NCBI GenBank assembly: GCA_016871195.1
Contig: VFZN01000005.1
Location: 124,001-188,000 of the forward strand
Direction of reading: 5' to 3'
Source: Acidobacteriota bacterium
Lineage (GTDB): Bacteria; Acidobacteriota; Vicinamibacteria; Vicinamibacterales; UBA2999
DNA length: 64,000 nucleotides
Positions 47,061 through 57,045 of the stretch are shown in pieces; position 1 is the stretch's first letter, and each line of letters begins with the position of its first letter. Made by a program: the position numbers and the translations under genes. A model generated the notes under the pieces. It worked only from the letters and a program-made list of their open reading frames with translations. It had not been told where the DNA came from and did not search any database.

Positions 47061-47846
47061 TTAGCCTCGGAGCCAGCGCACGTAGGTCGCCGCGGCTGCG
47101 GCCGGGTCGCCATCGGTGCCCTGCTCGGCGATGACCTGCACAAGCGCACTGCCCACCACCGCCGCGTCGGCCATGCGGCCCAGCGCCTGCATGTGTTCGG
47201 GCGTCGAAACGCCGAAGCCGAGCACCAGCGGGAGATCAGTGACCTCCCTGACCCGTCGGGCGAGCTCGGCCGCCGCATCACTGATGTCGGTGCGGGCGCC
47301 TGTGACACCGAGCCGCGATATGCCATAGAGGAAGCCGCGCCCCAGATGGGCCGCCTTCCGCATCCGTTCGGTCGAGGTCGTCGGGCTCAGCAGGAAGATC
47401 ATGTCGATGCCCGCCTGGGTGAACGCCTGGTGCCACTCTCGCCCCTCTTCGGGGGGCACATCCAGCGTGAGCACCCCGTCGACGCCTGCCTCTGCGGCCC
47501 GCGCCGTAAACTGCGCGAGCCCCATGCGCATGATCGGGTTGGCGTACGAGAACAGGACGATGGGCGCGGCGATGTCAGGCCTGATGTCGGCCACCATCTG
47601 GAGGACGCCGTCGAGGGTCGTGCCCGAGGCCAGGGCCCGCTCGGTGGCGCGCTGAATGACGGGACCGTCGGCGAGCGGATCCGAGAATGGCACACCCACC
47701 TCCAGCACATCGACACCGGTGGCATCGAGCGTCTTGAGAATAGCGGCGCTCTGCGCCAGCGACGGATCTCCCGCCGTAATGTAGGTCACCAGGCCTGTCC
47801 GCCGGTCGCGGCGGAGACGGTCGAAGCGGTCACTGATGCGCGACAT
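47061..47846 (-). CDS. trpA: Tryptophan synthase alpha subunit
   Basis: 261 residues. Cleaves indole-3-glycerol phosphate to indole, which is channelled to TrpB. The catalytic Glu is in [19 protein letters not shown] and the Asp in [11 protein letters not shown]; the end [14 protein letters not shown] binds the phosphate. ATG 47846 has GGAGGG 6 nt upstream and overlaps the trpB end by 17 nt. Last gene of the trp operon. Confidence 0.96.
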
Positions 47847-49056
47847 GATGTCCCTCCGGCAGCAGGGCCGCCACGCTCTGCACGTCCTTGTCACCACGTC
47901 CGGACAGATTGACCAGCACCGTCGTCCCTGGGGCCAGGCCGTGCGCTCCCTTCAACAGGTACGCGAACGCGTGCGCCGACTCGAGCGCCGGAATGATGCC
48001 TTCGGTCCGCGCCAGCGTCTGGAACGCCTCGAGCGCATCACTGTCGCCCGCGTACTCGTAGCGGGCCCGCCCGCTGGCGTGCAGCGACGCATGCTCGGGG
48101 CCGATCGCGGCATAGTCGAGACCCGCCGACACTGAATGCGTGGCCTCGACGTTGCCGTGTGCGTCCTGCAGCACCCATGTGCGTGTGCCCTGCAGAATGC
48201 CCGCAGCGCCTCCGGCAAACCGCGCTGCATGGCGCCCGGCGGCAATCGTTTCCCCTCCGGCTTCCACGCCGACCAGCTGCACCTGCGCATCATCGATGAA
48301 CGCATCAAAGATGCCCATCGCGTTGCTGCCGCCGCCGACACAGGCCACCACCACGTCGGGCAACTGGCCCGTCTGGTCGAGGCACTGCTGGCGCGCCTCG
48401 CGGCCAATGACGCTCTGGAATTCCCGCACCATCAGCGGATAGGGATGCGGCCCGAGCGCCGACCCCAGCAGGTAATGCGTGTCGTGCGGTCTGGCGACCC
48501 AGTCGCGCATCGCCTCGTTGATGGCGTCCTTCAGCGTGCAGCTGCCCGAGTCGACGCCGACGACCGTAGCGCCCAGCAGACGCATGCGGAAGACATTGAG
48601 CGCCTGACGGCGCATGTCTTCGGTGCCCATGTAGACCACGCACTCGAGGCCGAGCAGCGCGCAGGCCGTCGCCGATGCGACCCCGTGCTGCCCCGCTCCG
48701 GTTTCGGCCACAATGCGGCCCTTGCCCATGCGCACCGCGAGCAGGGCCTGTCCGAGGGCGTTGTTGATCTTGTGCGCCCCGGTGTGGGTGAGATCTTCGC
48801 GCTTGAGCAGCACGCGCAGCTGTCCGCAGGGGTCGCCGAAACGACGGGCGTCCCAGAGCGGCGTCGGACGCCCCACGTAGTGCCGGAACAACCGATCGAG
48901 TTCGGCCGCGAAGGCCGGATCGCGACGGGCCTCGAAATACTCGGCCTCCAGTGATTCGATGGGAGCCACCAGCGTCTCTGGAACAAACCGCCCGCCAAAG
49001 TCGCCAAAGTAGCCCCGCGCATCGGGGTCGCGTCGACCAAACCACACCGCACTCAT
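47830..49056 (-). CDS. trpB: Tryptophan synthase beta subunit
   Basis: 408 residues. PLP-dependent condensation of indole with serine. The start [16 protein letters not shown], the PLP lysine in [15 protein letters not shown], the phosphate-binding [12 protein letters not shown] and the end [12 protein letters not shown] are canonical for TrpB1. ATG 49056 overlaps the trpF stop by ATGA. Confidence 0.97.
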
Positions 49057-49652
49057 GCTTGCCGCCTTGCTGCAGCCACGAAGGCCGCGATACGCGCCGC
49101 GCTCTTGATGCCCGGCGCTTCTTCCACTCCTGATGACACATCCACGGCCCAGGGCCGCACGGCCCGCACCGCCTCGCCCACCGTGTCGGCCGTGAGTCCC
49201 CCGGCCAGCACCACGGCGCGCCGCGCCGCCAGCGCTGCCGCACGCGACCAGTCGGCCGTGCGCCCGGTTCCTCCGTGTTTCACCGGATCGTGCGCATCGA
49301 CCAGCACCGCCGCCTCGCCTCCGTCGTCCGGGTGCCAGGCGCCCAGCCCGTCATTCCAACTGATGGCGCGCAGCAGCCGGCAACCCTCGGGAAACGCGGG
49401 CACCGCGCCGTACACTTGCACCCAGCCGCACCCGGCATCATGCAGGCTCCGCACCTCGTCTGCCGAAGGACTGACAGTGACGGCCACGGTGGCAATGAAG
49501 GGCGGCACGGCCCGCATCAGTGATGACAGCTGCGCGCGTGTGACCGCGCGCGGACTGTGCGGCCACACGACAAACCCCAGTGCGTCGACGCCTGCCGCGA
49601 CGGCGGCCTTGACATCGTGCGCGCGTGTCAGTCCGCAGACCTTAATGCGCAT
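49053..49652 (-). CDS. trpF: Phosphoribosylanthranilate isomerase
   Basis: 199 residues, (beta/alpha)8 barrel. Catalytic Cys in [13 protein letters not shown], general acid Asp in VLVDAHDP, and ending [10 protein letters not shown] and [17 protein letters not shown] 49652 is chosen because MRIKVCGLT is the usual N-terminus; it overlaps the end of trpC by 11 nt. Confidence 0.95.
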
Positions 49653-50460
49653 CGGTCCGTGCCTCATCGAGGAATGCCCTCAGCGCCGCTCCGGGATCAG
49701 GCGTCGTCATGAAGCGTTCGCCCATCAGGAACGCACGGTAGCCGAGGGCTCGCAGGCGATGCACCTCGGCAGGGTGGCGCAGTCCGCTTTCGCTGACCGC
49801 GATGACTGAGGCCGGCAGCCACGACGCCACGCGCGCAGATAGCTCGACGTCGACCTCGAGCGTGCGCAGGTTCCGGTTATTGACACCGACCAGGGTGGCG
49901 CCGGTGTCGATCGCGCGACGCACCTCGTCCTCGGCATGCGTTTCCACCAGCACGGCCAAGTCCAGCGCCTCGGCCTGCTCGCGCAGTGCTCTGAGTGCGG
50001 CATCATCGAGTGCGGCCACGATCAGCAGCACCGCGTCGGCTCCGTGAGCGACGGCCTCGTGCAGCTGATAGGTATCGACGATGAAGTCCTTGCGGAGAAG
50101 GGGTGTGCTGACGGCATCACGCACCGCGCGCAGGTGTCGGAGATCGCCGTCAAAGAAGCCGGGCTCGGTCAGTACCGATATCGCTGCCGCGCTGGCGTCA
50201 GCATAGCCGCGGGCGATCGCGACCGGGTCATAGGCAGCCCGCAGCACACCGCGCGACGGCGATCGCCGCTTGCACTCCGCGATGATGGGCAGCCGGGTGT
50301 CACTCGTGAGCGCCGTGATGAACGCAGCCCCGCGAGGGCGCCACCACTCGCCTGCACGCTGCAGTTGGTCGAGCGTCGTGCTCAGGCGCGCCTCATGGAC
50401 GCGCGTTCGTGTCGCGGCCACTATGGCGGCGAGCACATCAGGCTGTGCCACATGCGTCAC
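49642..50460 (-). CDS. trpC: Indole-3-glycerol phosphate synthase
   Basis: 272 residues. IIAECKRRSPSRGVLR with the catalytic Glu-Cys-Lys cluster, PLLRKDFIVDTYQLHEAVAHG, VGVNNRNLRTLEVD and SESGLRHPAEVH mark the family. It is a separate gene here, not fused to trpF. The start overlaps the trpD stop by ATGA. Confidence 0.96.
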   Translation of the reverse strand: MTHVAQPDVLAAIVAATRTRVHEARLSTTLDQLQRAGEWWRPRGAAFITALTSDTRLPIIAECKRRSPSRGVLRAAYDPVAIARGYADASAAAISVLTEPGFFDGDLRHLRAVRDAVSTPLLRKDFIVDTYQLHEAVAHGADAVLLIVAALDDAALRALREQAEALDLAVLVETHAEDEVRRAIDTGATLVGVNNRNLRTLEVDVELSARVASWLPASVIAVSESGLRHPAEVHRLRALGYRAFLMGERFMTTPDPGAALRAFLDEARTDAH

Positions 50461-51476
50461 GCGGGATCTCCGTGCGACGCCAGCGCCACGCGCTGCAGCA
50501 GCGCGAGCGCACGACCCGAGTCGATGGCCTCGGCGCCCTGCGCGATGCCGTCGGCGACGGTCAGGGCGTATCCACTGAGCATCAGGGCGGCCCCGGCATT
50601 GAACAGCACCACATCACGTACCGCCCCGTGCGCGCCGCCAAGCAGTGCACGGATGATCGCGGCGTTGTCGGCCGCATCGCCGCCGCGCAGGGCGTCGACG
50701 GGTGACACCGGCAGACCGAAGTCGCCCGGGTGCACATAGAACGACCGCACGGTGCCGTGCAGCACTTCCGACACCTTCGTATGTCCCGACGTCGACAGTT
50801 CGTCGAGGCCATCGGCGCTGTGCACGACCCAGGCGCGCGTCGAACCCAGGGCCAGCAGCGTCCGCGCCATCACTTCCGTGAGTTCGGCCTGCGGCACACC
50901 CACGATCTGGCGCGCGGGTCGCGCCGGATTGGTGAGAGGCCCCAACAGATTGAAGGCGGTGCGGACCCCGAGGTCGCGTCTTGCGGGGCCCGCGTGGCGC
51001 ATGGCCGGGTGAAACGTGGGCGCAAACAGGAATGTGAACCCCTCTGCGTCAAGCAACCGCGCGGCGGTATCGGGGGTCATGGCCACCTGCATGCCCAACG
51101 CTTCCAGAACGTCGGCACTGCCGCATCGGCTCGAGACGGACCGATTCCCATGCTTGGCCACCGGCACACCAGCAGCGGCCACGACGATCGCCGCCGCCGT
51201 CGAGATGTTCACGGTGTTCGCGCCGTCGCCTCCGGTGCCGCACGTGTCGAACACGTCGCCGTCGCGTCGTTCCAGCGGGGTGGCGTAGGCCCTCATCGTC
51301 GTGGCCAGCCCCACGAGTTCGGCCGGGCGCTCGCCCTTCATGGCCAGCGCGATCAGCAGGCCGGCGATCTGCGCGGGGGGAATCTGCCCCGACATGATCG
51401 CTTCCATCGCGGCGGCCGCCTGTGCGGTCGACAGATCACCATGCCGACGCAACTGGTCAATCAGCTGAGGAATCAT
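50457..51476 (-). CDS. trpD: Anthranilate phosphoribosyltransferase
   Basis: 339 residues. The PRPP-binding DTCGTGGDGANTVNIST and the anthranilate site AKHGNRSVSSRCGSADVLE are exact family motifs, with NLLGPLTNPA later. ATG 51476 forms an ATGA with the trpG stop; the frame is open further upstream but only across trpG. Confidence 0.96.
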   Translation of the reverse strand: MIPQLIDQLRRHGDLSTAQAAAAMEAIMSGQIPPAQIAGLLIALAMKGERPAELVGLATTMRAYATPLERRDGDVFDTCGTGGDGANTVNISTAAAIVVAAAGVPVAKHGNRSVSSRCGSADVLEALGMQVAMTPDTAARLLDAEGFTFLFAPTFHPAMRHAGPARRDLGVRTAFNLLGPLTNPARPARQIVGVPQAELTEVMARTLLALGSTRAWVVHSADGLDELSTSGHTKVSEVLHGTVRSFYVHPGDFGLPVSPVDALRGGDAADNAAIIRALLGGAHGAVRDVVLFNAGAALMLSGYALTVADGIAQGAEAIDSGRALALLQRVALASHGDPA

Positions 51477-52045
51477 GCTGACACCTCGAGAAAATTCCGA
51501 AGCAACTGCAGCCCATCGGAGGTCAGCACCGACTCGGGATGAAACTGCACACCGAAGATCGGGCGCGTGCGGTGCCGCAGGCCCATCACCAGCCCGTCGG
51601 CCTTCGTGCGAGCCGTGATCTCCAGATCGGCGGGCATCGACTCGGCCTCGACGATCAGCGAGTGATAGCGCCCGACCTGCGCCTCCGTCGGCCATCCTCG
51701 GAAGATCGTCTGGCCGTCGTGCACGATCACCGATGTCTTTCCGTGAATGGGCATCGGCGCCCGGATCACCTGTCCGCCAAAGGCCAGGCCGATGGCCTGG
51801 TGCCCGAGACACACGCCCAGCACCGGCGTCTGCGGCGAGATCGACTTCAGAATGTCGAGCATGGCGCCTGCCTCTTCGGGGCGTCCCGGTCCTGGTGACA
51901 TCACCACGTGCGACGGCGCAAGGTTGACGACATCAGCCGGAGTGACTTCGTTATTGCGGCGCACACGCACGTCGACTCCGAGCATGCCGAGGTACTGCAC
52001 CAGGTTGTAGGTGAACGAGTCGAAGTTGTCGATGACAAGCACCAT
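51473..52045 (-). CDS. trpG: Anthranilate synthase glutamine amidotransferase subunit
   Basis: 190 residues, class I amidotransferase. DNFDSFTYNLVQYL, the oxyanion strand MSPGPGRPEEAG, nucleophile Cys in LGVCLGHQAIG and the His-Glu pair in FGVQFHPESVLTSDG are all present. In many bacteria this subunit also serves PabB. It lies 9 nt after trpE. Confidence 0.95.
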   Translation of the reverse strand: MVLVIDNFDSFTYNLVQYLGMLGVDVRVRRNNEVTPADVVNLAPSHVVMSPGPGRPEEAGAMLDILKSISPQTPVLGVCLGHQAIGLAFGGQVIRAPMPIHGKTSVIVHDGQTIFRGWPTEAQVGRYHSLIVEAESMPADLEITARTKADGLVMGLRHRTRPIFGVQFHPESVLTSDGLQLLRNFLEVSA

Positions 52046-52054
52046 GGCGATGTC

Positions 52055-53527
52055 CTAGAGTCCGGCCTGCGCCAGTTCGAGGGCGCGCATCATAGCGCGC
52101 GCCTTGTCACGGGTTTCCTGATACTCGGCCGTGGCATCGGAATCGGCCACGACCCCGGCACCCGCCTGCACCCGGGCGCGGCGCCCGTCCATCAGCACGG
52201 TGCGGATGGCGATGCAAAAATCAAGATTGCCGGCGAAGTCGAGGTAGCCGATCGCCCCGGCGTAGAGGCCCCGCCGATCGGGTTCGAGGTCGGCGATGAT
52301 CTGCATCGCCCGCACCTTGGGCGCGCCAGAGACGGTGCCTGCCGGGAAGCAGGCCATCAGCGCATCGAGCCGGTCGCGCCCCTCTGCAAGCGTACCGTTG
52401 ACCACCGACACGAGATGCATGACATGCGAATAGCGCTCGAGGGCCATGTACCTGGCGACGTCCACCGTACCGTACGTCGACACGCGGCCCAGATCGTTGC
52501 GGCCCAGGTCGACGAGCATCACATGCTCTGACTTCTCTTTTTCGCTCGCCCGCAGCTCATCGGCCAGCCGCTGATCCTCACGTTCAGTGGCACCACGAGG
52601 CCGTGTTCCTGCGATGGGATGCGTGACCGACTGACGGCCTTCGACGCGCACCAGCATCTCTGGCGACGACCCCACGATGGTACGGCCGCCCATGCGGATG
52701 AAGAACATGTAGGGCGACGGGTTCACGTGCCGAAGCGCGCGATACACCGTGAAGGCATCGGCGTCGACCTCGGCCTCGAACCTCTGCGACAGCACGACCT
52801 GATAAATATCGCCGGCCGCAATGTGTTCCTTGGCCGTGCGGACCATGGTCTCGAAGCGTTCGCGCGTCAGGTTCGAGTTGAACGTGACAGGCGGATGTGC
52901 GACGGGTGTCGGCACCGCCAGCGCCCGTTCGAGCTCGGCTTGAAGAAAGCCGATGCGTGTGCAGGCAAAGTCGTAGAGCGCCCGCAGGTCATCGTGACCC
53001 GATACCCGGGCATTGGCGATGATGAGGATGCGATGCTGCACGTGGTCGAACGCCAGCACCGTGTCGAACAGCATGAAGCCGGCCTGTTCCGTGGCATCGT
53101 CCACTGCGGTGGTCACCGGTAGCGCCGGTTCGAACCACTGGGCCGTGTCGTACCCGAAGTAGCCGACGGCCCCGCCTGTCAGGCGCGGAAGACCGGGGAC
53201 GTAGGGGGCCTGGAACTGGTTCATCAGCCGACGCAGCGTGTCGATGAACGGACCGGGCACGACGGTCGTGACACCGGCCTCCTCGATGGTGGTGCGATCG
53301 TGGTGACCGCGCAGCAGCAGGAAGGGGTCTTTGCCTAGGAACGAATAGCGGCCGACATGCTCGCCGCCTTCCACACTCTCGAGCAGGAAGGCATAGTCGG
53401 AATGCTCGGCGATGCGCAGGAACGCCGAGACCGGCGTCAGCAAATCGGCCATGATTTCCTTGCACACCGGCACAAAGGTGCCCTGCTGCGCCAGTGCCAC
53501 AAACTCTTCGTAGGTCGTCAGCTTCAT
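52055..53527 (-). CDS. trpE: Anthranilate synthase component I
   Basis: 490 residues. Converts chorismate to anthranilate with ammonia from TrpG. The N-terminal LLES (48-51) is the classical tryptophan feedback site. The catalytic half has GDIYQVVLSQRFE, PSPYMFFIRMG, GTRPRGATEREDQ, ELRASEKEKSEHVMLVDLGR and GTVSGAPKVRAMQII. ATG 53527 overlaps the aroDE TGA by one base (TGATG), so both control layers, feedback inhibition and attenuation, are visible. Confidence 0.96.
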   Translation of the reverse strand: MKLTTYEEFVALAQQGTFVPVCKEIMADLLTPVSAFLRIAEHSDYAFLLESVEGGEHVGRYSFLGKDPFLLLRGHHDRTTIEEAGVTTVVPGPFIDTLRRLMNQFQAPYVPGLPRLTGGAVGYFGYDTAQWFEPALPVTTAVDDATEQAGFMLFDTVLAFDHVQHRILIIANARVSGHDDLRALYDFACTRIGFLQAELERALAVPTPVAHPPVTFNSNLTRERFETMVRTAKEHIAAGDIYQVVLSQRFEAEVDADAFTVYRALRHVNPSPYMFFIRMGGRTIVGSSPEMLVRVEGRQSVTHPIAGTRPRGATEREDQRLADELRASEKEKSEHVMLVDLGRNDLGRVSTYGTVDVARYMALERYSHVMHLVSVVNGTLAEGRDRLDALMACFPAGTVSGAPKVRAMQIIADLEPDRRGLYAGAIGYLDFAGNLDFCIAIRTVLMDGRRARVQAGAGVVADSDATAEYQETRDKARAMMRALELAQAGL

Positions 53528-54975
53528 CACTGCCTGCTTTCGAAACGCGCCGCCTCGGCGGCCGCGCGCATCACACCCTGCGGTGCCGTCATGCCCGTCC
53601 AGACACGGCACTGCGCCTCGGCCTGCGCCACCAGCATGTCGAGTCCCCCGATGGTGCGACACCCGGCGGCTGCCGCATCGCGGAGCAGCTGCGTGTCGGC
53701 GGGGTTGTAGACGAGGTCGTAGACGAGCCCCACGCGCTCGAGCCATGAGGCCGGCACGGGTGATGTGTGCACGTCAGGGGTCGTGCCCACTGGCGTGGCA
53801 TTGACCAGCACATCGCATCTCATGCCGTCGACGCCGGTCACCACAGTCCCGTGAACCATGTCGGCCAGCCGCTGCGCGGCATCACTGCGCCTGGCGTGGA
53901 TGGCGACCTCTGCATCTGCGTGACGCAGGGCTACCGCCACGGCCCTCGCGGCTCCGCCAGCCCCGAGGATGACGGCACGGCGCCCGCGCAGGTCGATCTG
54001 CGAGGTCAGCGGACTCAGGAATCCTTCCACGTCGGTATTGCCGCCATGCCACCCGGCCGACGTGCGCACCATCGTATTGACGGCACCGGTCGCGACCGCC
54101 CATTCGTCGCGTGTGACACACGCCTGCCACGCATCGCCCTTGAAGGGCGCCGTGACACTGGCCCCCCGCAGTTCAAACGCCGGCGCCACCTCGAGCACAT
54201 CGTCGAAGGACGGCGCGGTGATCGGCACGTAGACGGCATCGCGCCCGAGTGCGGCGAATGCCGCGTTGTGCATCGCCGGTGACCACGAGTGGCGCACCGG
54301 GCGTCCGATCACGCCGTAGACCTCGGTCGCCTGTGAAATATGCGCCACGCGATAGTGATCGCGCATGACACGCGCCGTCAGCTGCCCCGCCGCGACGGCC
54401 TGATCGTCGGACGCATACGTCCAGCGCGAGTGCATCCGCGTGAACAGCACGCGCGAGATGACGCCGATGTCGCCCATGCCAAGCAGCACGGCGCGACCGT
54501 CGTGGGCACGTCCGATGTCTCGCAATACCAGGAGTTGTACCAGCCGGTCCGGTGTGACCGCCAGCTTGATGGTGCCGGCCCCGGTCGCAGCCATCGCGCG
54601 CGCCAGTGCCCCGCAGTCGGCGGGCATTCCGTCAAAGTCGTGATGCGATAACACGACGCGTGCGCGATCGGCAGGGGCACACCAGTCGAGGCTGCCCGTG
54701 TCGAACTCGACATCGACAGCGTCGGCGCCGAGGGCCAGCGCCTGCCGCAGCAGGGCGAGGCGCTCGGCTTCGTCGCCCTCGAACCAGCCGCCCTGACGAC
54801 GGGGACGGCAGGTCACCAGCACCGGCCCGCGACGGCCCTCGAGCGCACCGGCAACATCGGGACGGTCGACCGCATCGAGCCGCAGTTCGGTGAATGTGCC
54901 GGCCGGCCAGGCGTCGCGCCTGGCACGCAGGGCCTCCATGGTGGGGGCGGCGATGGTGATGCAGAGTCCGTGCAT
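53527..54975 (-). CDS. aroDE: Bifunctional 3-dehydroquinate dehydratase / shikimate dehydrogenase
   Basis: 482 residues, two enzymes in one chain. Residues 1-215 form a type I dehydroquinase with active-site His in VVLSHHDFDG (111-112) and Schiff-base Lys137 in GAGTIKLAVT. Residues 218-482 form AroE: YGVIGRPVRHSWSPAMHN, catalytic Lys279 in ASVTAPFKGDA, GGNTDVEGFL, the NADP fold AVILGAGGAARAVAVAL and the end GGLDMLVAQAEAQ. The usual VTIPxK reads VTAPFK here. The same order is known from plants and some bacteria. It is the first structural gene behind the trp attenuator and makes shikimate for all aromatic amino acids. Confidence 0.95.
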   Translation of the reverse strand: MHGLCITIAAPTMEALRARRDAWPAGTFTELRLDAVDRPDVAGALEGRRGPVLVTCRPRRQGGWFEGDEAERLALLRQALALGADAVDVEFDTGSLDWCAPADRARVVLSHHDFDGMPADCGALARAMAATGAGTIKLAVTPDRLVQLLVLRDIGRAHDGRAVLLGMGDIGVISRVLFTRMHSRWTYASDDQAVAAGQLTARVMRDHYRVAHISQATEVYGVIGRPVRHSWSPAMHNAAFAALGRDAVYVPITAPSFDDVLEVAPAFELRGASVTAPFKGDAWQACVTRDEWAVATGAVNTMVRTSAGWHGGNTDVEGFLSPLTSQIDLRGRRAVILGAGGAARAVAVALRHADAEVAIHARRSDAAQRLADMVHGTVVTGVDGMRCDVLVNATPVGTTPDVHTSPVPASWLERVGLVYDLVYNPADTQLLRDAAAAGCRTIGGLDMLVAQAEAQCRVWTGMTAPQGVMRAAAEAARFESRQ

Positions 54976-54990
54976 GAACAGTGTGAAACG

Positions 54991-55025
54991 AAAAACGCCT
55001 CTTCAACCGGGGGGATGAAGAGGCG
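54991..55025 (-). terminator. trp attenuator: Rho-independent terminator in the leader
   Basis: On the minus strand TGAAGAGGCG... reads as a perfect 10-bp stem: + strand CGCCTCTTCA (54996-55005) with TGAAGAGGCG (55016-55025) and a 10-nt loop. It is followed on the minus strand by five U (54995-54991). It lies 39 nt after the leader peptide stop and 16 nt before aroDE. A competing pairing of AGAGGCCGC in the leader (minus, 55078-55070) with GCGCCTCT of the 5' arm of this stem would act as antiterminator. Confidence 0.9.
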
Positions 55026-55064
55026 CAGAACCTTGGTGTGCCAGTGGTCGATTCGGGTCGACGG

Positions 55065-55175
55065 TCAGGCGGCCTCTCTGTGGAAGCACCACCACCACCA
55101 TCCACGCACGAGGCGACCCGGCCGGATCACTCCGGTCGACGCGGCGTGCGAAACAGTCGTGACACTGACAGCCAT
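55065..55175 (-). CDS. trpL: trp operon leader peptide with four tandem Trp codons
   Basis: A 36-codon frame from ATG 55175 to TGA 55065, beginning MAVSVTTVSHAASTG and ending RGWWWWCFHREAA. Four consecutive TGG codons (55100-55089) lie 12 codons... more exactly, seven sense codons before the stop. Tryptophan is the rarest residue and its operon follows, so this is the classical arrangement of a ribosome-sensing attenuator. Stalling at the Trp codons would leave the AGAGGCCGC segment free to pair with the 5' arm of the terminator; translation to the stop would cover that segment and allow termination. The start lacks a Shine-Dalgarno. The four-Trp run explains the CCA repeat seen on the plus strand. 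Confidence 0.9.
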   Translation of the reverse strand: MAVSVTTVSHAASTGVIRPGRLVRGWWWWCFHREAA

Positions 55176-55188
55176 GGGAACGAGGTGG

Positions 55189-55218
55189 AGACTACCACAT
55201 CGCGTAGTATGGGAACAA
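55189..55218 (-). promoter_or_regulatory. Probable trp operon promoter
   Basis: On the minus strand TTGTTC (55218-55213), 18 nt, TAGTCT (55194-55189). Transcription would start about 55182, giving only about 7 nt before the trpL ATG. A plus-strand TAGTAT (55205-55210) overlaps it and may serve the divergent S55 gene. Confidence 0.5.
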
Positions 55219-55227
55219 CCTTCCGTC

Positions 55228-57045
55228 ATGCGCGCCTCACGCTGTTCCCTGCCCATCGCTGCCACGGCTGTGCTGCTGGCGCTGGCGAGCCTCACGCCGG
55301 TGCCGCAGGCCCAGACACGGTTCATGGCCGTCTCCGAGATTCGCCCGGGCATGGTGGCCACAGGACGCACCGTCTTCAGCGGCACGCAACTGGAGGAATT
55401 CCGCGCACACATTCTCGGCGTGCTCCGCAACGTGCTGGCTCCAGGCCGCGACCTGATTCTCGCGCGGCTCGAGGGCGGGCCTCTGGCCAGGACGGGGGTC
55501 ATTGCCGGCATGAGCGGCAGTCCCCTCACCATCGATGGCCGCCTCATTGGCGCTGTGTCGTATTCACTCGGGCAGTTTGCCATCGAGCCGATTGCCGGCA
55601 TCACACCGATTGCCGAAATGACTGATGCCGCGCAGATGGGCGCCGCGGCCCCGCGTCTGGCGCCGGTCGCGCTGGCCTGGCCCTATCAGCACGACGCACT
55701 CACCTCCGCATGGGCGCAGGCCCTGTCGGCCGGACGCCCACGTCCCGTCCAGGCGCAGGTGGCCTCAGGCAGCGCCGCGCTGTTGCGACCGATGGCGCTG
55801 CCGCTGTCAGCGGCCGGATTTGATCCGTCACTGCTCTCGGCACTGTCACCAGTCTTTGATGCGGCCGGCCTGCTGCCGCTCACGGCACAGCCCGCCAGCG
55901 TCAGCCCTGATGCGCCCTCGCGGCTGGAACCGGGCGGTGCGGTTGGCGTCTCGCTGATGTCAGGCGACTTTGAGATGGGAGCCACCGGCACGGTGACGCA
56001 CATCGACGGTCCACGCGTCTACGCCTTCGGCCATCCGATGTACAACCTCGGGCCGACCCGCTTTCCGATGACCACGGCGTATGTGCACGTGGTGCTGCCG
56101 AGCCTGATGCAGTCGAGCAAGCTGGCCAGCGTCGGCGCTGTGGTCGGTACCCTCACGCAGGACCGTGCGACGGCCGTCGCTGGGGAACTCGGCGCCGGTC
56201 CCAGCCTGATTCCCATGACCGTGCAGCTCAAATCGGGCCGCCTGGGTGACCGCGCGTTTTCCTTCCAGCTGGTGCGCGATACGACGTTCACTCCGCTGCT
56301 GGCCTATCTGGCCCTCGCCAATGTGCTGACATCGTATGAGCGTGCAAATGGCCCGGCGTCGTTCCGTGTCGCGGGCACCGCCGAGGTCATCGGTGCGGGC
56401 ACCCTCGCCTTCGATGACACGTTCGTCGGTGATCAGGCCATCGGGCCTGCGTCGCTCTACATCGCCGGTCCGCTCACCCAGCTCACTCGCAATGCAGCAG
56501 CCCCGGTCGACATTTCAAAGATCACGCTGACCGTGACGGCGTCTGAACAGACCCGCCACGCGCGCATCGAGCGCGTCTGGCTCGACGCGCCGCGCCCCCG
56601 TGCCGGGCAGCGCACGCGTGTCCTGGTGGCCCTCCGCACCCCCATGGGCGAGGAACGTATCGAACGGATTCCAGTGACGCTGCCCACGGATATCACCGGT
56701 CCGGTCGAGCTGCTCGTGGCCGATGCCGCGCGCATCGCCGCTGACGACCGGCGCACCCGTCCCTCAACCGACTGGCAGCCGGCGGCCGAGCTGGTGCGGC
56801 AGTTCAACCGTCTGCCGCCCAGTCACCAGCTCTATGTGCGACTGCAGCAGGCGCGTGCAGGAGCCGTGGTCAGTGGCGAGCCCATGCCCTCACTTCCTCC
56901 TTCCGTCGTCTCGGTGCTCGAGGCCGGTGACGATGAAGGTCGCATCACGTCGCTTCCCTTTGCGATTCGCGCGAAGTGGGAGCACCCTGTGGGAATCGCC
57001 GTCTCCGGCTCCCGCCAGCTCTCCCTCATCGTCGAGCATCCCTGA
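55228..57045 (+). CDS. Secreted SpoIVB-type (S55) serine peptidase domain protein
   Basis: 605 residues with a signal peptide (MRASRCSLPIAATAVLLALA). GMSGSP (94-99) with the candidate nucleophile Ser96, followed by LTIDGRLIGAVSYSL, matches the S55 active-site segment. RVYAFGHPMYNLG supplies the candidate His269. In SpoIVB the GH segment precedes GMSGSP; here the order is reversed. The C-terminal half (about 400-605) looks like beta-sandwich material. The host shows no sporulation genes in this window, so the substrate is unknown. ATG 55228 is preferred because a signal peptide follows. The next gene starts 3 nt after its stop. Confidence 0.8.
   Translation: MRASRCSLPIAATAVLLALASLTPVPQAQTRFMAVSEIRPGMVATGRTVFSGTQLEEFRAHILGVLRNVLAPGRDLILARLEGGPLARTGVIAGMSGSPLTIDGRLIGAVSYSLGQFAIEPIAGITPIAEMTDAAQMGAAAPRLAPVALAWPYQHDALTSAWAQALSAGRPRPVQAQVASGSAALLRPMALPLSAAGFDPSLLSALSPVFDAAGLLPLTAQPASVSPDAPSRLEPGGAVGVSLMSGDFEMGATGTVTHIDGPRVYAFGHPMYNLGPTRFPMTTAYVHVVLPSLMQSSKLASVGAVVGTLTQDRATAVAGELGAGPSLIPMTVQLKSGRLGDRAFSFQLVRDTTFTPLLAYLALANVLTSYERANGPASFRVAGTAEVIGAGTLAFDDTFVGDQAIGPASLYIAGPLTQLTRNAAAPVDISKITLTVTASEQTRHARIERVWLDAPRPRAGQRTRVLVALRTPMGEERIERIPVTLPTDITGPVELLVADAARIAADDRRTRPSTDWQPAAELVRQFNRLPPSHQLYVRLQQARAGAVVSGEPMPSLPPSVVSVLEAGDDEGRITSLPFAIRAKWEHPVGIAVSGSRQLSLIVEHP

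Follow-up and report, generated by a model that had tools for sequence, protein, structure and literature searches.

Operon and leader region

The DNA analysed here (the window, 64,000 nucleotides) belongs to a genome assembly from the phylum Acidobacteriota, with 3.08 Mb in 51 contigs. Eight genes lie on its minus strand in the order aroDE-trpE-trpG-trpD-trpC-trpF-trpB-trpA (Table 1), in agreement with the first-pass annotation, which had described an eight-gene aromatic/tryptophan operon. Upstream of aroDE we found an open reading frame of 36 codons, from an ATG at 55175 to a TGA at 55067-55065, with the product MAVSVTTVSHAASTGVIRPGRLVRGWWWWCFHREAA. Its four adjacent Trp codons (TGGTGGTGGTGG, UGGx4) are unique within the window, and no such run appeared in 100 shuffles. 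An intrinsic terminator begins 38 nt past the UGA, at 55026, and ends 16 nt before aroDE. Frame, Trp run, stop codon and the 16-nt distance were all as the annotation had given them. It had also reported a 10-bp stem followed by five U. The U tract, which extends to 54991, was borne out, and the stem proved to be longer, with 11 pairs (GCGCCUCUUCA / UGAAGAGGCGU, 55026-55016 with 55005-54995, a G.U pair being outermost) and 2 further inner pairs (-21.6 kcal/mol). A strict terminator scan missed this hairpin owing to the loop limit of the scan, and absence is not implied.

Table 1. Operon and leader features in the window, numbered by window position
Feature	Positions	Strand	Basis or remark
Predicted promoter: -35 TTGTTC (55218-55213), 18-nt spacer, -10 TAGTCT (55194-55189)	55189..55218	-	weak alone; counterpart in most of 50 relatives
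trpL-like leader peptide ORF	55065..55175	-	ATG 13 nt past -10, short 5' UTR; Trp-codon frame open in relatives
Sensor, four adjacent Trp codons (UGGx4)	55089..55100	-	sequence; shuffle test; in-frame UGG in relatives
Segment A, antiterminator 5' strand in ORF tail (ACAGAGAGGCCGC)	55069..55081	-	A:B covariation; shuffle tests; duplex energy
Segment B, serving both as terminator 5' arm and as antiterminator 3' strand	55013..55026	-	alignment; A:B and B:C covariation
Segment C, terminator 3' arm	54995..55008	-	B:C pairing and changes on both sides
U tract of intrinsic terminator	54991..54995	-	sequence; T-rich tail in relatives
aroDE, 3-dehydroquinate dehydratase / shikimate dehydrogenase fusion	53527..54975	-	first structural gene, ATG 54975
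trpE	52055..53527	-	probable ATG overlapping aroDE stop; long ORF from 53746
trpG, glutamine amidotransferase	51473..52045	-	
trpD	50457..51812	-	true start probably within listed ORF
trpC	49642..50460	-	
trpF	49053..49667	-	
trpB	47830..49056	-	
trpA	47061..47897	-	

The leader frame stays open farther upstream, giving 179 aa when read from a GTG; we prefer the ATG at 55175 because the promoter position is conserved. In most of the 50 aligned loci of relatives, TTGACA/TTGACG-17/18-TAnnnT stands at the matching place relative to the leader start, and in most loci the start codon lies 8-23 nt past the predicted -10. A few loci (e.g. L004, L007, L049) gave no clear promoter box in the scan of relatives. 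A strict scan of the window called no promoter, a result limited by its hexamer threshold that does not imply absence. If transcription is assumed to start about 7 nt past the -10, the 5' UTR would measure about 1-16 nt. No Shine-Dalgarno sequence was visible before the leader ORF, and judging from the predicted promoter and 5' end, its translation is probably leaderless or nearly so. On the plus strand, the longest ORF (window 54970-57045) overlaps the leader in antisense and has a weak match to SpoIVB peptidase. The actual start of this ORF probably lies around 55228, nearly touching the trp leader promoter, so that the two genes would share a divergent promoter region.

Conservation within the order

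AroDE was present in 57 of the 59 relatives searched; an AroDE search of genome contigs gave distant matches only and was left out of the results. At every one of the 50 same-order loci examined that have an intact upstream region, aroDE was preceded by a terminator and, ahead of that, by an open frame containing clustered UGG codons. Each of these leaders has 2-4 in-frame UGG codons (mean 3) in patterns such as WWWW, WWYW, WYWYW, WRYW and similar, and the distance from the Trp-codon cluster to the terminator is near-constant at 67-93 nt. Terminators in the relatives follow the pattern GCCUCUUCAGCC...GGUUGAAGAGGC-U(n), with a T-rich tail. Trp codons rank among the most conserved alignment columns, and peptide residues outside the Trp cluster are highly variable. 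Where the Trp run is interrupted, the interruptions come in whole codons, which is what selection on the peptide, and not on the RNA alone, would predict.

At an E threshold of 0.01, a covariance model of the leader region had a match in 121 of the 129 same-order genomes, and 118 of these matches lay below 1e-8; 43 of the matched genomes are inside the alignment and 78 outside it. In the eight genomes that were missed, the assembly has either no aroDE or only part of it, and because the operon start is missing there, they are not counterexamples. No genome among the 129 had an intact operon start without the leader. Relatives with the operon and without Trp run and terminator, which the first-pass annotation had named as evidence against its reading, were thus not found in the order, and the attempt at refutation failed. 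Two same-order genomes (G108 and G116, 97-98% complete) had no aroDE or trpE match, which points to either an assembly gap or Trp auxotrophy.

Competing helices

The consensus of segment A, CUGAAGRGGC, lies directly 3' of the Trp codons and is a near-copy of terminator arm C. In the alignment, 91.2% of cells were paired in the A:B helix and 94.3% in the B:C helix. Covariation was 0.225 for A:B against 0.173+-0.010 in shuffled controls (0/500), and 0.252 for B:C against 0.147+-0.010 (0/500). These counts are inflated by sequence kinship, and the slid controls, which reached at most 0.096 (A:B) and 0.098 (B:C), weigh most. Changes on both sides were seen in 8 of the 13 B:C pairs. Moreover, the B variants CCUCUUC, CCCCUUC and CCCCCUC were matched by changes in both A and C, and this is the signature of mutually exclusive pairing. 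Covariation in both stems and conservation of the Trp run, which had been put forward as checks, were therefore both found across the 50 loci. The covariation of A:B also upholds the pairing proposed earlier between an AGAGGC-(C)-GC element and the terminator 5' arm, with the position of the element corrected by one base to 55077-55069 (minus).

A:B outperformed dinucleotide shuffles in 48 of the 50 loci, and mean energies over the set were -18.4 kcal/mol for A:B and -22.9 kcal/mol for the terminator. Few members of the set have a weaker A:B duplex than the window (-11.8 to -13.5 kcal/mol), where the comparison with dinucleotide shuffles gave a p of about 0.03 only. An antiterminator is hence found across the set, though it is weak in the window itself.

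Segment A starts at a median of 11 nt past the last UGG and 22 nt ahead of the stop codon. With this spacing, a ribosome at the Trp codons is predicted to leave A largely free, and one at the stop codon to cover much of it. We folded the RNA as it stands before C is made, masked by a 29-nt ribosome footprint. Mean A:B pairing was 0.43 with no ribosome; it was 0.51-0.53 when the ribosome occupied the Trp codons and fell to 0.07 when it stood at the stop. For the window, A:B was 0.53 if the ribosome occupied the first UGG and 0.02 if it occupied the last. Ribosome-constrained folding, also suggested by the first-pass annotation, thus gave the geometry of a classical attenuator as a set average and a mixed picture for the window. 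Once the RNA is complete, B:C outcompetes A:B in every case; like other attenuators, this one must therefore switch kinetically. Since A:B averages 0.43 even on ribosome-free RNA, termination would be unreliable if the leader went untranslated. A protector of the E. coli 1:2 kind was also sought, and before C is made segment A paired with upstream sequence at a mean of only 0.29.

Attenuation model and alternatives

A leader ORF with a Trp run, an intrinsic terminator between it and the structural genes, and an antiterminator that shares the terminator 5' arm characterize classical amino-acid attenuators, and all are present here. We consider it very probable (roughly 90%) that transcription at this locus is attenuated by a ribosome-mediated mechanism that senses charged tRNA-Trp, and we infer its response to Trp from sequence. 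The leader ORF would be translated while emerging from RNA polymerase. A ribosome well supplied with Trp would reach the stop codon and mask A directly; B:C would then form and RNA polymerase would stop ahead of aroDE. When Trp-tRNA is scarce, the ribosome would stall on the UGG run, upstream of A, and the exposed A would pair with B before C exists. No terminator would form, and the eight genes would be transcribed.

The terminated RNA or the leader peptide might in addition act in trans, like rnTrpL/peTrpL of Sinorhizobium meliloti, a role compatible with attenuation. Such a role would be in keeping with the predicted near-leaderless ORF and the short terminated RNA, both of which recall that species (PMC7298713), but the wide variation of peptide residues outside the Trp cluster argues against it, and we think it improbable. 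Somewhat less probable still is that stalling acts through Rho-dependent termination or by regulating how aroDE is translated, the hairpin being secondary. Leader peptides without obvious terminators in Actinobacteria have been proposed to act through Rho (PMC1262725), and the terminator lies close to the aroDE start. However, the strong stem and the U tract are conserved and covarying, as expected for an intrinsic terminator.

A terminator under another sensor, such as a TRAP-like protein, a T-box or a small-molecule riboswitch, with the Trp-rich ORF incidental, has a precedent: in Bacillus and relatives, intrinsic terminators before trp operons are controlled by such sensors. Against it, neither TRAP (mtrB) nor a T-box was detected in 40 relatives, in a search that detected its positive controls. 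No Rfam family fell on the window leader, a region in which the trp operon leader RF00513 went unmatched even with E values as high as 5 allowed, and on 20 related loci no Rfam family reached gathering score, weaker matches being chance. The rank of the Trp codons among the most conserved columns also speaks against an incidental ORF, and we judge this explanation highly unlikely. TrpR was not found in this genome. Hairpins arise easily in high-GC DNA, but the notion that this one merely parts the operon from the divergent gene, with a coincidental UGGx4, is already refuted by the 50/50 conservation, the compensatory changes, the absence of UGGx4 from shuffles and the operon-matched codons in other lineages described below.

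Comparison with known attenuators

As an attenuator, the leader shares with E. coli trpL the adjacent Trp codons in a leader peptide, the mutually exclusive antiterminator and intrinsic terminator, and the position ahead of trp genes. In E. coli, segment 2 lies past the leader stop, whereas here the ORF itself holds A, downstream of the Trp codons and ahead of the stop. In further contrast, aroDE is the first gene, TrpR was not found, the start is probably near-leaderless and there is no Rfam match. The logic of the E. coli trp operon, invoked in the first-pass annotation, therefore held as regards a Trp attenuator with conserved codons, terminator and alternative pairing; the predicted layout is simpler, with three segments and A in the tail of the leader ORF. 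Read at the sequence level, this has the features of a classical ribosome-mediated attenuator outside the Rfam Trp leader family, and its three-segment and near-leaderless features may make it a variant of known attenuators.

Actinobacterial trp attenuators (Corynebacterium, Streptomyces) likewise have UGG runs, there double or triple, a GC-rich terminator and three complementary segments, gGCC-rGCy-GGCC (PMC1262725). Here the core is GARRGGC-GCCUCUUC-GAAGAGGC, and the first gene and the phylum differ. The attenuator RNA of S. meliloti begins at the trpL AUG (PMC7298713). Trp attenuation and a short 5' end, both predicted for the window leader, are common to trpL-trpE(G) of that species and the locus described here, which differs in its aroDE-trp operon and in a predicted start that leaves a few nt of 5' UTR.

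Attenuators have been described in Proteobacteria and Actinobacteria (PMC1262725, PMC4833913), and in one survey almost no predicted attenuators of Acidobacteria have an assigned function (PMC2965389). In the portion of the literature available on Acidobacteria, leader peptides and attenuation, no trp attenuator is described; the multi-phylum survey of Lopatovskaya et al. 2010 (Mol Biol 44:128) or Merino et al. 2008 may list related cases, and we claim no priority. The main interest of the locus is that it would extend ribosome-mediated attenuation at the level of the phylum, with a function that can be read from the sequence. It also suggests a mode of pathway control in an abundant, hard-to-culture soil phylum; the genomes searched here yielded none of the usual Trp regulators.

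Related leaders elsewhere in the phylum

The expectation that an instance in this lineage would extend attenuation to it was supported, and the instance is not a lone one: it recurs throughout the order and has counterparts of related design in other parts of the phylum. Within the class, aroDE of a sister order (family f16) is preceded by a leader with one or two Trp codons and a His cluster (VRRWRPVFRHHRYHP, VWRGSVHHHRHHS, VRRWRATVHHHRYHA), followed by a similar terminator. The genes downstream in one such genome (G062) are aroDE, a ThiF protein, hisZ, hisG, hisC, hisB, hisH, hisA, a hisI/E protein and trpE, and three further sister-order genomes have the same gene order as far as covered. 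His codons thus appear where his genes follow aroDE, so that the sensor codons track operon content, and the shift between the two orders amounts to a natural experiment.

In families f85 and f21, a WWWC or WWWY leader stands before a TrpB-like gene (L089, L090, L091), with the A/B/C segments CCGGAGGGC / GCCCUCCGG / CCGGAGGGC and an A:B p of 0.005-0.010. Upstream of trpE in other families, a short ORF with a Trp run and a terminator was found in 14 of 40 regions, against 1 on the reverse strand. A:B was significant in 6 of the 12 such leaders tested (p up to 0.015), and their sequence is unrelated. Mixed Tyr/Trp runs before trpE (YYTYYWWF, YYYWWY, YYFWWYY and RYYWWWC at L209, L213, L215 and L216) may make such leaders responsive to several of the aromatic amino acids. 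In certain same-family genera, pheA is preceded by a Phe-rich leader, e.g. MTTTRRATVRSFTGFFFTGRVTV, and a terminator (L093/L116 in G024, L118-L121); the A:B helix of these leaders was not significant, and no Phe-rich leader was seen upstream of pheA in the window genome (L145). Many weak matches to the model across the phylum were set aside as ordinary terminators.

Conservation throughout the order, together with the analogues in the phylum, fits either an old origin or a repeated invention of ribosome-mediated attenuation. As a tentative and rather doubtful generalization, there could be a phylum-wide class of leaderless or near-leaderless three-segment attenuators with A in the ORF tail. 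In such a class the sensed amino acid would be recoded with operon content (Trp at aroDE-trp, trpE and trpB-like genes, Trp and His at aroDE-his-trp, Phe at pheA), and the untranslated default would lean to read-through. In sister-order leaders (L109 in G062, L110 in G067, L111 in G060, L112 in G063, and L151-L161) the stop codon is followed by a hairpin, and an antiterminator strand resembling GGUUUCCUGGAGAG is present; the layout of the Trp and His leaders in that order is possibly one of four segments.
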